A DNA stretch of 38,513 bases from Amylibacter sp. (lineage in GTDB: Bacteria; Pseudomonadota; Alphaproteobacteria; Rhodobacterales; Rhodobacteraceae), in assembly GCA_016764475.1 (NCBI GenBank), contig JAESRV010000077.1, positions 1 through 38,513 on the forward strand, written 5' to 3'. How positions within the stretch are numbered: the first letter of the stretch is position 1; each line of letters starts with the position of its first letter. Below, one piece after another: positions 18,261-22,723 of this stretch. A program made the position numbers and the translations under genes. A model generated the notes under the pieces. The model worked only from the letters and a program-made list of their open reading frames with translations, was not told the origin of the DNA and searched no databases.

Positions 18261-21200
18261 TTAGCCAGTCCGCTGCACTTCTTGCGCGTCGCGAACACCA
18301 GAGAGTGACTTGAGCGCCTTGCGTGCCGCCCTGTCTGCCGGCCAGGTGCCCTCTATTTGTACTTCGACCTCACATCCGCTTGGTGTCTCGAACACCAGAT
18401 TGAGGCGACGAAGCGGGACATCCTCCCGCCCGCGCAAGGCCTCCAGACACGCCCTGACCGCGGCAGCCTGGTCACTATCATTCAGAGTGACACGCAAATC
18501 CCCTGCTTTCTCTTCGGCCAGACTTTGCAAGGGGTCAACCCGGTTCAGTTTCAGCCGGGCATCGCCCGTGGCCTTGTCAATACGTATAGAAGCCAGCACC
18601 GCAGCGCCCGGCACCATCATCTCGCCAGATTGTTCCAAAAGTCCAGGCGGGGCGAGAACTTCGCATTCCCCACTCGCATCAGAAAACGTAATAAAGGCAA
18701 ACCGCCCACCGCGCTGACTAGGCCGCTCGCGCTTGGCCCTGATGACCGCAGCCAGCCGCATTGACGAACCACCTCGGGCCACTCTTTGGGCGATTTCACC
18801 AATGGGGGTGACGCCAATGCCTTTGATACAATCCGTAAACGCATCAATGGGGTGCCCCGAAAAATAAAATCCGATGGACGCCAGCTCCTCCTGCAGAACA
18901 ACATCCGTGTCCCAAGGGTCCTGATCCGGTAATTCCGCCCGGCCAACGTCTGGGGCTTCATCACCAAAAAGGCCGACTTGCGCGGAGGCGCGCTCTTTTG
19001 CCGCCAGCGCTGCATGGGCCAGCATGGGGCCTGCCGCGCAAAAGACCTTATGGCGATTAGGTTCAATACTATCAAAGGCCCCGGCTCGGGCCAAATTCTC
19101 AATGGCGCGTTTGTTCAAAGCTTTTGGATCAACCCGTGTGGCAAAGTCAAACAGGTCTTTATAGGGGCCATTCTTATGCCGTTCTTCGGCAATATGCGCC
19201 ATCGCAGCACTGCCCACATTACGGACTGCGCCCAGTGCATAAATAATTTTGCCATTCTCAACGGTAAAATCTGCGGCACTGTGGTTTACATCAGGGCCAC
19301 AAACCTCGACGCCCTGGCGTTTCGCATCCATCACAAATACGGTCAATTTATCTGTATTGGCAATATCAAGACTCATCAGAGCCGCCAGTAATTCCACCGG
19401 GTAATGCGTTTTCAGCCATGCGGTCTGATAAGAAACCAGCGCATAGGCCGCAGAGTGAGATTTGTTAAACCCGTATCCGGCAAACTTATCAACCAGATCG
19501 AATATATACTCGGCCTTGTCTTCCTCAACGCCATTATCCATGGCCCCCGCGACAAAGCGTTTGCGTTGAGCCTGCATTTCCGACTTGATTTTTTTGCCCA
19601 TGGCCCGGCGCAAAAGATCAGCCTCGCCAAGCGAATATCCCGCAAGAACCTGAGCGATTTGCATCACCTGTTCCTGATAAATAATAACACCATAGGTTTC
19701 AGCGGTTATGTGGGTAATTTTATCGTGCAAAAAAAGCGGCGCTTGCTGCCCATGCTTACACGCCGCGTATTTTGGGATATTTTCCATCGGCCCCGGGCGA
19801 TAAAGAGCAACAATAGCAATAATATCTTCAAAACAATCCGGTCGGGCCTTGCGCAAGACATCACGCATACCAGAGCTTTCCAATTGAAAAATACCAACCG
19901 TCTCGGCACGCGATAGCATGTCAAACGTCTTGGTATCATCAAGCGGCAACGCTTCAATATCGACATCAACGCCGCGCGCAGAGAGAAAAGAAACAGCACG
20001 ATCAATGACCGTCAGTGTTTTCAGGCCCAAAAAGTCAAATTTGACCAAGCCACACTTTTCCGCCCACTTCATATTAAACTGTGTGGCTGGAATATCGGAC
20101 TTTGGATCACGGTAAAGCGGTGAAAGTTGCACCAGTGGCCGATCCCCGATCACGACACCTGCGGCATGCGTTGAGGTATTACGGTACAGCCCCTCTAACG
20201 CCAAAGCCGTATCCAGCAATTGCGCGACATCATGATCTTCATCCCGGGCCTGTTGCAACCCTGGCTCCGAGGCAATCGCCTCTTTTAGCGTAAGCGGGTT
20301 TGCCGGATTGCTGGGTACCATTTTGGCCAATCGATCCACAAGGCCCAGTGGCAATTGCATAACCCGGCCAACATCGCGCAATACCACACGTGCCTGCAAG
20401 GTCCCAAAGGTAATAATTTGCGCTACACGGTCATCGCCATATTTATTACGCACATAATCAATAACCTCACCGCGCCGCTCCTGACAGAAATCAATATCAA
20501 AGTCAGGCATGGACACCCGTTCGGGGTTCAAAAACCGCTCGAACAGAAGACCAAAACGCAAAGGGTCAAGTCCTGTAATCGTCAGCGCCCAGGCGACAAC
20601 AGAGCCAGCTCCGGACCCCCGACCGGGCCCAACAGGAATGCCTTGGTTATTGGCCCATTTGATGAAATCGGCAACGATGAGAAAATAGCCCGGAAACCCC
20701 ATCTGATTGATGATGCCCAACTCGTGCTCAAGGCGCTTCCAATAGACCTCTTCAGAAGCCGAAAGTTCCGTATTGTCCAATCGTTCTTTCAGTCCGTTTC
20801 TGGCCTGTACTGCCAACTCCTCAGCTTCGTCTGCCCCCTTGCCGCTGGTAAAGTTTGGCAGGATAGGTGCGTGGGTGCGTGGCCGATAATGGCAGCGCAG
20901 CGCCACCAAAGAGGTGTTAGAAATCAATTCCGGAAAATCGCTAAACACTTTAGCCATTTCCCGGCCTGATTTAAAATAATGCTCAGGCGTAACGCGTCTG
21001 CGGTCAGGAACGGATATATAGGTACTTTGCGAAATACACAAAAGCGCATCATGAGCCGCATACATTTCCCGTTTTGCGAAATAAGGCTCATTCGTAGCCA
21101 CCATGGGTATGCCATGACGATCAGCCCAGTCCAAAAGCGCTGGCTCGCTCAGCTTTTCCTCAGCGCGCTCATGGCGCTGTATCTCAACGAACAGATTGTC

Positions 21201-21710
21201 ACCAAACGTCTTGGCCATGGCGTTCAGATGAGCGTGCGCCTTATCTGTTTGCCCATTATGCAGCAATCTGTTGGCAATACCATCAAAGCCGCCAGTCAGG
21301 GCAATAAGCCCCTTTGCATGGGCACAAACACTCTGCCAGGAAACATGTGGCAGGTCGGCAGGGTCAACGTCCAGAAACGCCTTAGAGCTGAGCGCCATTA
21401 GATTGAGATAGCCAGTCTGGTCTGTTGCCAACAGGACAATATTACCCAGAATTTCCCTACCCTGAGCGTTATGATTTGAGGCCTGGCCCAGAGCCAGCGT
21501 CAGGCCAACAATTGGCTGCACACCAGCCTCAGAAAATACTTCTGAAAATTCAAGCGCCCCAAAAAGGTTGTTAATGTCCGTCAGGGCCAGTGCCGGCATA
21601 CCGTGGTGGACGGCCAGATCACGCAGGCCTTTAATCTCGACCGCGCCTTCAAGCAGGGAATATGCGGAACGACATCGCAAATGCACAAAGGGTAATGACG
21701 CCGTATCCAT
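18261..21710 (-). CDS. dnaE: DNA polymerase III alpha subunit (replicative DnaE1)
   Basis: A 1149-residue catalytic subunit of the replicase. N-terminal PHP domain (about 1-280) begins FVHLRCRSAYSLLEGA, with several metal ligands of active PHP domains replaced, so proofreading there is unlikely. The palm contains PGRGSGAGS (362-370) and the catalytic PDFDIDF (402-408, Asp403 and Asp405). These are followed by the fingers, the tandem HhH region and a C-terminal OB-fold part (SMRLAAVIRAKRERPSQRGGRFAFITFSD). Length and N-terminus fit DnaE1, not the SOS-linked error-prone DnaE2. It lies 55 bases downstream of a LexA-linked microprotein gene and may be partly SOS-controlled. No terminator was seen before rpsB. 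Confidence 0.95.
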   Translation of the reverse strand: MDTASLPFVHLRCRSAYSLLEGAVEIKGLRDLAVHHGMPALALTDINNLFGALEFSEVFSEAGVQPIVGLTLALGQASNHNAQGREILGNIVLLATDQTGYLNLMALSSKAFLDVDPADLPHVSWQSVCAHAKGLIALTGGFDGIANRLLHNGQTDKAHAHLNAMAKTFGDNLFVEIQRHERAEEKLSEPALLDWADRHGIPMVATNEPYFAKREMYAAHDALLCISQSTYISVPDRRRVTPEHYFKSGREMAKVFSDFPELISNTSLVALRCHYRPRTHAPILPNFTSGKGADEAEELAVQARNGLKERLDNTELSASEEVYWKRLEHELGIINQMGFPGYFLIVADFIKWANNQGIPVGPGRGSGAGSVVAWALTITGLDPLRFGLLFERFLNPERVSMPDFDIDFCQERRGEVIDYVRNKYGDDRVAQIITFGTLQARVVLRDVGRVMQLPLGLVDRLAKMVPSNPANPLTLKEAIASEPGLQQARDEDHDVAQLLDTALALEGLYRNTSTHAAGVVIGDRPLVQLSPLYRDPKSDIPATQFNMKWAEKCGLVKFDFLGLKTLTVIDRAVSFLSARGVDVDIEALPLDDTKTFDMLSRAETVGIFQLESSGMRDVLRKARPDCFEDIIAIVALYRPGPMENIPKYAACKHGQQAPLFLHDKITHITAETYGVIIYQEQVMQIAQVLAGYSLGEADLLRRAMGKKIKSEMQAQRKRFVAGAMDNGVEEDKAEYIFDLVDKFAGYGFNKSHSAAYALVSYQTAWLKTHYPVELLAALMSLDIANTDKLTVFVMDAKRQGVEVCGPDVNHSAADFTVENGKIIYALGAVRNVGSAAMAHIAEERHKNGPYKDLFDFATRVDPKALNKRAIENLARAGAFDSIEPNRHKVFCAAGPMLAHAALAAKERASAQVGLFGDEAPDVGRAELPDQDPWDTDVVLQEELASIGFYFSGHPIDAFTDCIKGIGVTPIGEIAQRVARGGSSMRLAAVIRAKRERPSQRGGRFAFITFSDASGECEVLAPPGLLEQSGEMMVPGAAVLASIRIDKATGDARLKLNRVDPLQSLAEEKAGDLRVTLNDSDQAAAVRACLEALRGREDVPLRRLNLVFETPSGCEVEVQIEGTWPADRAARKALKSLSGVRDAQEVQRTG

Positions 21711-21765
21711 AATGTCCGCTTTCCCTCGCCATTAGAATGATTCCCGGCGCAGCTTAGCGCCTAAC

Positions 21766-21858
21766 TTAGCCGCCGAGAACCATGGACCACGCCCCAACCA
21801 GCAAAGTCAAACCCGCCAGCACAGAAAGGGCTGCAGCTTCTCTGAGTATATCACGCAT
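21766..21858 (-). CDS. 30-residue single-span membrane microprotein under a LexA box
   Basis: An ATG ORF of 30 codons ending in TAA. It has a charged start (MRDILREAA) and a hydrophobic helix at about residues 9-28 (ALSVLAGLTLLVGAWSMVLG). GGAG lies 7 bases before the ATG (ATATGGAGATTGAAAATG), and a perfect GTTC-N7-GTTC LexA box lies 20 bases upstream. Size, membrane topology and SOS control recall SidA of Caulobacter, a 29-residue inner-membrane inhibitor of division. No residue-level homology is claimed. It sits between lolD and dnaE on the same strand. Too short for most gene callers. An inert leader peptide for dnaE is the main alternative. Confidence 0.6.
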   Translation of the reverse strand: MRDILREAAALSVLAGLTLLVGAWSMVLGG

Positions 21859-21878
21859 TTTCAATCTCCATATTTAAT

Positions 21879-21893
21879 GTTCTTGTTTTGTTC
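21879..21893. promoter_or_regulatory. LexA box (SOS operator) with adjacent -35 element
   Basis: GTTCTTGTTTTGTTC is an exact match to the alphaproteobacterial LexA site GTTC-N7-GTTC (on the minus strand GAAC-N7-GAAC). On the minus strand a perfect TTGACA (21919-21914) lies 20 bases upstream of it. The box therefore covers the expected -10/start region, ideal for repression. The -10 itself is weak (AAAGAA at 17-base spacing). The next start downstream is the 30-codon microprotein at 21858, then dnaE. Confidence 0.75.
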
Positions 21894-22009
21894 TTTTCAT
21901 AATTGCATTAGTCTGTCAAGCAGGTTTTTGCCTTTTTATTGTGATTAATGTCGCGCACTAAAGGCCTGACTGAACTGCCAAGGCATAAGAAATGCCTAAT
22001 AATATGGCT

Positions 22010-22723
22010 TTACACAGGGTTTTTGGTGACTGGTTTTCCATCCTGCATGACCAGAATGCGGTCCATATAAGTTTGCAGATCATGATTGTGTGTGGCCACA
22101 AGCGCCGCAACTCGCTCTATGCGGACCAGATCAAACAGGCTCTGAAAAACTGCTGCAGATGTATTAGGGTCCAGATTGCCGGTAGGCTCATCAGCCAACA
22201 AAATGCGGGGTCGATTGACCAAAGCCCGGGCGATGGCCACGCGCTGTTGCTCTCCACCAGATAATTGCGAAGGCTGATGCTTTACCCGGTCAGACAACCC
22301 CATAATATCAAGAAGACGCGCGGCCTCTTTGCGCGCCGAACGCGCGCCCTGCCCGGCAATACGCAGCGGCATAGCCACATTGTCCAGCGCCGTGAATTCG
22401 GGCAGCAAATGGTGAAACTGATAGACAAAGCCAATGCCATTGCGCCGCACGGCGGTGCGCTCGCCGTCTCTTAGGGAGAGGCATTCCTGTCCCTCAATCC
22501 AGACTTCGCCATCATCAGGACGCTCCAACAGGCCCGCCGCGTGCAGAAGTGTGGATTTACCAGAACCAGACGGGCCAATCAGACCAACAAATTCACCGGC
22601 ATTGATCTCCAGGTCCGCGCCATTAAGCACTTCTAAAAAGCCGTCCCCCGAAGGGTAACGCCGGGTAATGTTGCGCAGCCGCAAAACCGGGTCTTTTGTG
22701 GCCTCGCTCGTTTCCTCACTCAT
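22010..22723 (-). CDS. lolD: Lipoprotein-releasing system ATPase LolD
   Basis: A 237-residue ABC ATPase that powers release of outer-membrane lipoproteins from the inner membrane to LolA. Walker [10 protein letters not shown] (50-58), signature [15 protein letters not shown], Walker [13 protein letters not shown] and the switch His in VATHNHDL are intact. The segment [22 protein letters not shown] is characteristic of LolD. It overlaps the lolC gene by 8 bases. It is followed by a 151-base gap that holds the LexA-controlled promoter of the next unit. Confidence 0.93.

Follow-up and report, generated by a model that had tools for sequence, protein, structure and literature searches.

Among the SOS division inhibitors, a group that includes SulA, YneA and SosA and shares the logic of a division block induced by damage, the closest counterpart of the locus analyzed here is SidA of Caulobacter. 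Sections of PMC4211646 describe SidA as an inner-membrane protein of 29 residues with FtsW as its target, and report its inner-membrane location, its binding to FtsW and FtsN, and its block of division. LexA control in vivo, the division block and the targets are reported for C. crescentus SidA only. According to excerpts of the respective papers, sidA is CCNA_02004 (PMC10769358), CCNA_02005 is an inosine-uridine nucleoside hydrolase (PMC3667746), and dnaE is CC1926 in Caulobacter (PMC1839093, table row).

Other small membrane proteins invite comparison with the peptide described below. TisB of E. coli is an SOS-induced single-helix membrane toxin controlled by antisense RNA, and DidA is a Caulobacter protein of 71 residues encoded at another locus than sidA. 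E. coli DinQ is an SOS-induced single-helix peptide too, set apart by its other locus, its mode of action and its antisense-RNA control. DidA resembles SidA as a membrane division inhibitor that works via the FtsW/I/N complex, but it binds FtsN, is SOS-independent and is driven by DriD (sections of PMC4211646). SulA acts on FtsZ, and the genes yneA, divS, chiZ and sidA are called unrelated (sections of PMC4211646).

A micro-ORF with a LexA box between lolD and dnaE

We analyzed a 38,513-nucleotide stretch of DNA, hereafter the window; the features considered here lie on its minus strand. A gene at 22010..22723 encodes a LolD-type ABC ATPase of 237 aa, for which NCBIfam TIGR02211 LolD is the best match (257.4 bits, under its cut-off of 307.75). 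The dnaE gene, at 18261..21710, encodes the DNA polymerase III alpha subunit (1149 aa; NF004226, above cut-off). Between the two we read a -35-like TTGACA hexamer (21914..21919), a perfect LexA box of the form GAAC-N7-GAAC (GAACAAAACAAGAAC, 21879..21893; GTTC-N7-GTTC on the plus strand), a GGAG ribosome-binding site (21866..21869) with 7 nt spacing to an ATG, and a sidA-like ORF of 30 codons plus stop (21766..21858). The box lies 20 nt from the ATG of this ORF, which is co-directional with dnaE and whose stop is 55 nt from the dnaE ATG at 21710. The predicted 30-residue peptide, MRDILREAAALSVLAGLTLLVGAWSMVLGG, has a charged N-terminus followed by a single hydrophobic helix (best 15-residue hydropathy mean, 2.15).

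The initial annotation had described a perfect LexA box, a TTGACA, a GGAG and a 30-codon ORF, all of which were found on the minus strand where it had placed them. At the level of sequence elements, its proposal of a 30-residue peptide with one hydrophobic helix under SOS-box control is supported. A promoter scan called no sigma-70-like promoter on the minus strand around the ORF: the -10 region downstream of the TTGACA at 21919-21914 is poor, and only the -35 hexamer is good. The same scan found no terminator-like site within 21600-22050.

Origin of the window contig

The assembly that holds the window (G000) is nominally placed in a family (loci L032-L060) that we read as Rhodobacteraceae-like; two Paracoccaceae sequences fall inside it in a DnaE tree. 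G000 has a second dnaE on contig C126, the product of which is 55% identical to that of the window (residues 6-800 of 800 searched). Its rpsB is duplicated as well, the second copy, on C11, being 62% identical to that of the window contig (G000:C63). We compared both DnaE proteins with 11 genus-mates of G000, namely those given as loci in a search that matched 31 of 33 genomes including G000. Identity to these genus-mates is 64-85% for the C126 DnaE (first 300 residues) and 44-49% for the window DnaE.

In an order-wide search, the best matches of the window DnaE were G767 and G563 (77%), which belong to genus g358 of family f175, in the order of G123. The family of G123, f63, contains two genomes in which a Caulobacter CtrA sequence was matched at 100%; one of these two, G519, has a 287-residue DnaE fragment identical to the DnaE of C. 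vibrioides DSM 9893. As judged by these identities, f63 is the Caulobacteraceae. The DnaE tree places the window on a long branch beside Caulobacteraceae, with no firm support. We therefore consider the window contig most likely to be misbinned and to come from a different lineage in the order of Caulobacteraceae. Such an origin would explain why dnaE loci of the nominal family lack the boxed ORF, and it makes the absence of the ORF from that family uninformative about the ORF.

Conservation of the micro-ORF at the protein level

The two sister genomes carry the ORF at loci L275 (G767; peptide MRDILREAAALSVLVSLTLLVGAWSMVLGG) and L276 (G563; peptide MRDIIREAAALSVLAGLTVLVGAWSMVLGG). The window peptide is identical to each of them at 28 of 30 residues; DnaE identity is 77%. 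Across the three pairs formed by the window and its sisters, base changes at codon positions 1, 2 and 3 number 4, 1 and 12; 4, 0 and 12; and 5, 1 and 12, and third positions take 12/17 and 12/16 of the changes that separate the window from its two sisters. For the same three pairs, the ORF DNA is identical at 73/90, 74/90 and 72/90 positions, and the stretch from its stop to dnaE at 34/66, 37/62 and 41/68 aligned columns.

The initial annotation had suggested dN/dS as a check on the ORF. The values for these pairs (0.070, 0.067 and 0.144, rough figures from 30 codons each) point to purifying selection, and pooled dN/dS in three further groups within the family was 0.30, 0.12 and 0.21 (pairs non-independent). 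As judged by its substitution pattern, the sidA-like ORF is a real gene under purifying selection.

The sister loci also retain a TTGACA ahead of the box, and L275 a GGAG before the ATG. In both L275 and L276 an imperfect second box, GAAC-N7-GAAA, precedes the perfect one. The window shows no such second site, which suggests that tandem LexA sites may be present in the sister genomes and not in the window.

Relationship to Caulobacter SidA

Before dnaE in C. vibrioides DSM 9893 (L222), we found a 29-residue ORF (from an inner ATG) that matches the NCBIfam model NF033228 (div_inhib_SidA) over all 29 positions (E 2e-20; 72.4 bits, cut-off 35). The gene order at this locus is lolD, an oppositely oriented nucleoside hydrolase gene (Pfam IU_nuc_hydro), sidA and dnaE, in agreement with the published assignment of sidA to CCNA_02004 and of the nucleoside hydrolase to CCNA_02005. 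The LolD neighbor is 81% identical to that of the window in L275 and 61% identical in C. vibrioides.

The window peptide shares with SidA its length (30 versus 29 residues), its charged N-terminus and one helix, a GAAC-N7-GAAC box, and a position between lolD and dnaE. It differs in lacking the FVWM stretch of Caulobacter SidA and in its low identity, which is 21% to the C. vibrioides peptide and 14-31% to 15 Caulobacteraceae sequences; moreover, no nucleoside hydrolase gene separates lolD from the ORF in the window, as one does in C. vibrioides. The window peptide matched no NCBIfam model, NF033228 included, and no Pfam family. We therefore file the peptide as a SidA homolog outside this curated equivalog model and not as one of its members.

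Profile searches connect the two peptides. With a profile of 27 Caulobacteraceae SidA sequences, the window ORF took first rank when the window was searched as 1331 six-frame segments, at an E of 2.7 that is not significant. We then used a profile grown from Caulobacteraceae SidA over four rounds against 3287 segments from dnaE-upstream regions, with L275 and L276 left out and the window outside the set. Its growth used a loose inclusion limit (0.1) and dnaE-upstream DNA only, so that position contributes to it; what is independent is the subsequent search of the window. This grown profile matched the window ORF with an E of 2.8e-9, and the next segment scored 1.7. In the final round 45 loci were included, every one in sense orientation; none of the 29 from the nominal family (L032-L060) was among them.

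As judged by the grown profile, the window ORF is a divergent homolog of Caulobacter sidA, and probably its ortholog, in a different family within the order. The likeness to SidA that the initial annotation had drawn is therefore borne out beyond resemblance, by synteny as well as by iterated-profile homology. Its word 'undescribed' does not hold for the kind of peptide, as SidA is known (29 residues, FtsW; sections of PMC4211646), although this member has no match in Pfam or to the SidA model of NCBIfam. What is new here is the breadth of the SidA-like family and its constant place. Beyond cellular genomes, a tblastn search of phages and plasmids with the 29-residue C. vibrioides peptide gave no match, a result that argues only weakly for absence given how short the query is.

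LexA boxes upstream of dnaE

The window contains 2 occurrences of GAAC-N7-GAAC against 0.65 expected, and 14 of 100 shuffles reach 2; a single box in a window of this size, taken alone, is within chance. The significance of the box comes from comparison, namely from the retention of both box and ORF in G767 and G563, the closest two genomes by DnaE in the order-wide search, and from its recurrence upstream of dnaE. Perfect boxes lie within 400 nt upstream of dnaE in 16/29, 25/26 and 15/30 loci of three sidA-bearing sets. Control counts for 11 permuted 4-mers in the same sets had means of 0.55, 0.82 and 0.18 and maxima of 3, 3 and 1. Within the same distance, no perfect box was found at the 29 loci of the nominal family (L032-L060), where the permuted mean was also 0.

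Box spacing was surveyed at 173 dnaE-upstream loci from five sets. A spacing of 7 between GAAC pairs was seen at 79 loci, and spacings of 3-6, 8-11 and 15 at 1 to 8 loci each. Spacings of 12, 13 and 14 were more frequent, at 15, 22 and 28 loci respectively. Spacing 12 was accompanied by spacing 7 at each of its 15 loci, the pattern expected of tandem half-sites; the frequent spacings 13 and 14 perhaps mark a second half-site array.

We also surveyed 23 lexA loci, in 18 of which the start was placed by pattern; a box lies within 300 nt upstream of the lexA start in 17 of these 18. In both sister genomes, G563 and G767, lexA is preceded by GAACATCTATAGAAC, the same box form as found before the sidA-like ORF. 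Among 22 genomes with both genes placed (L306-L327), lexA and dnaE share a contig in 16, at a distance of about 23 to 43 kb, and are on different contigs in the remaining 6. By that spacing, the lexA of the window lineage would fall just past the left end of the window.

Distribution across Alphaproteobacteria

We examined dnaE-upstream regions at the level of order, family and class. The order-level set comprised the best 30 of 242 DnaE-matching genomes (249 searched), 29 of them from f175 and one from f176, and a membrane micro-ORF was found just upstream of dnaE in all 30. An ORF scan of the Caulobacteraceae set (f63) found the micro-ORF in 26 of 30 loci; of the other four, L125 has one by profile, L131 is without upstream DNA, and the scan found none in L108 and L110. 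A further set of mostly named Caulobacteraceae (L222-L249) had it in 26 of 28 loci, the exceptions being L231, with only 48 nt upstream, and L242, with none. C. vibrioides DSM 9893 was counted in both of these sets, as G519 (L123) and as L222.

Across the class, dnaE was matched in 353 of 385 genomes, and 89 loci were examined: the 29 best after the window (L070-L098) and 60 from later rows, with rows skipped and some out of order. Upstream DNA is shorter than 300 nt in 4 of the 89. Box and membrane micro-ORF occur together before dnaE in 24 of these 89 loci, which span 13 families (f4, f5, f10, f19, f41, f57, f70, f82, f91, f116, f121, f126 and f171). The initial annotation had named a box kept only for dnaE as the finding that would speak against it. 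The reverse was seen: all 24 class-level loci with GAAC-N7-GAAC upstream of dnaE also have the micro-ORF, located downstream of the box or overlapping it. It had also called for a search of the lolD-dnaE gap in relatives. Upstream of dnaE, box and micro-ORF do recur; with f63 and f175 included, they were found in 15 families among those sampled. The micro-ORF occurs without a perfect box in f137 (L084, among the class-level loci) and f176 (L304). A few hydrophobic ORFs were seen in the nominal family (L032-L060), by scan alone.

The grown profile detects kinship in f10, f121, f137, f4, f91, f82, f19, f171, f175 and f176, with weak matches in f57 (0.0034) and f126 (0.02). Inclusion of f5, f41, f70 and f116 follows from position, box and helix alone. 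At seven loci of these four families (L087, L164 and L178 in f5; L077 and L093 in f116; L209 in f41; L221 in f70), box and micro-ORF are present with no detectable SidA kinship, and the peptides would be either highly diverged SidA or a different peptide that occupies this site.

An earlier, first profile was searched class-wide; it included the window, and the window's own match is no test. It matched 135 of 385 genomes at E <=1; most of the matches below the top are short and partial, and we take them as chance. Its 16 strongest matches all lie at dnaE, including G337, G123, G063 and G297, which were not profile rows. Rank 17 (G289:C77, 2.5e-4) is on a contig other than that of the genome's dnaE, and rank 18 (G353, 5.8e-4) is again at dnaE.

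We found no account of a wider SidA family among the titles and abstract openings of the literature matches listed, with subscription papers mostly outside their scope. The curated SidA model missed both of the members tested from outside Caulobacteraceae (n=2). The distribution indicates that the Caulobacter damage-checkpoint peptide is no local invention: a fast-changing SidA family with a LexA box would occupy a fixed site next to the replicase gene in many families of Alphaproteobacteria. This fixed place offers a simple route to an SOS division inhibitor in genomes without an annotated one.

Proposed function and alternative explanations

At the sequence level, the locus presents a gene, selection upon it, a box, and homology and synteny with SidA. 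We consider it likely that the gene is a sidA homolog or ortholog whose SOS-induced peptide holds FtsW/FtsI/FtsN and delays constriction. Upon DNA damage, RecA would promote LexA self-cleavage and LexA would leave the box at 21879-21893; a transcript from near the TTGACA would then encode the 30-residue single-helix peptide. By analogy with Caulobacter, the peptide would enter the inner membrane and keep the FtsW/FtsI/FtsN complex inactive, with constriction delayed until repair. For the window lineage, induction, membrane insertion and division block are predicted steps.

Size, single helix and LexA box would also suit an SOS-induced toxin of the TisB/DinQ kind, one that depolarizes the membrane and is not a division inhibitor, and excerpts of PMC3567139 describe E. 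coli DinQ as an SOS-regulated toxic single-membrane-span peptide. Iterated-profile homology and gene order, however, both point to SidA, and we regard a toxin as improbable here. Very improbable, too, is a role of the ORF as a leader peptide or upstream ORF that would tune dnaE through its translation and have no protein function of its own. The ORF is short, close upstream of dnaE and co-directional with it across a 55 nt gap that contains no terminator-like site, as such a leader could be; yet its amino-acid sequence is conserved and not its position alone, its gap to dnaE varies from overlap to ~260 nt in relatives, and in C. vibrioides its counterpart is SidA, for which a protein function is reported. 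That a chance ORF happens to sit next to a chance box has a negligible probability: taken alone, the box could be a chance occurrence in the window (14/100 shuffles), but box and frame are both retained in G767 and G563 and are found repeatedly in families across the class, and the protein sequence is conserved beyond the DNA. All three alternatives were ranked below the SidA reading.

Relationship to dnaE

The gene order lolD-sidA-dnaE recurs, and the window ORF likewise lies behind lolD and upstream of dnaE. The initial annotation had regarded the link to dnaE as unusual, a view that does not stand, since C. vibrioides has the same adjacency; judged by gene order, a dnaE-adjacent sidA-like ORF is common to Caulobacter and not peculiar to this genome. 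Co-transcription of the ORF with dnaE is plausible because of the 55 nt gap and the lack of a terminator-like site in the scan, and read-through into dnaE would be predicted for the window lineage. The ORF-dnaE gap among relatives extends from overlap to ~260 nt, and the larger gaps would leave room for a separate dnaE promoter.

The term 'dnaE' occurs 0 times in the main texts of four Caulobacter papers (PMC12700426, PMC13384398, PMC4211646 and PMC4117421), which thus lend no support to dnaE as a noted SOS gene. We found no passage that places sidA beside dnaE in the literature covered, from which subscription papers were mostly absent. Tentatively, and somewhat less likely than not, sidA-dnaE may represent an old alphaproteobacterial SOS operon, in which a single LexA-relieved transcript would halt septation and raise the replicase, the two being coupled by read-through, and whose micro-ORF changes so fast that it would escape the curated SidA model in lineages beyond Caulobacteraceae. 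With a family this broad and this constant in position, whether dnaE belongs to the SOS response deserves a direct test.

Three loci (L089, L207 and L211) have a GTTC-form box within 90 nt of dnaE without a membrane micro-ORF; these boxes may reflect direct LexA control of dnaE alone, or chance.
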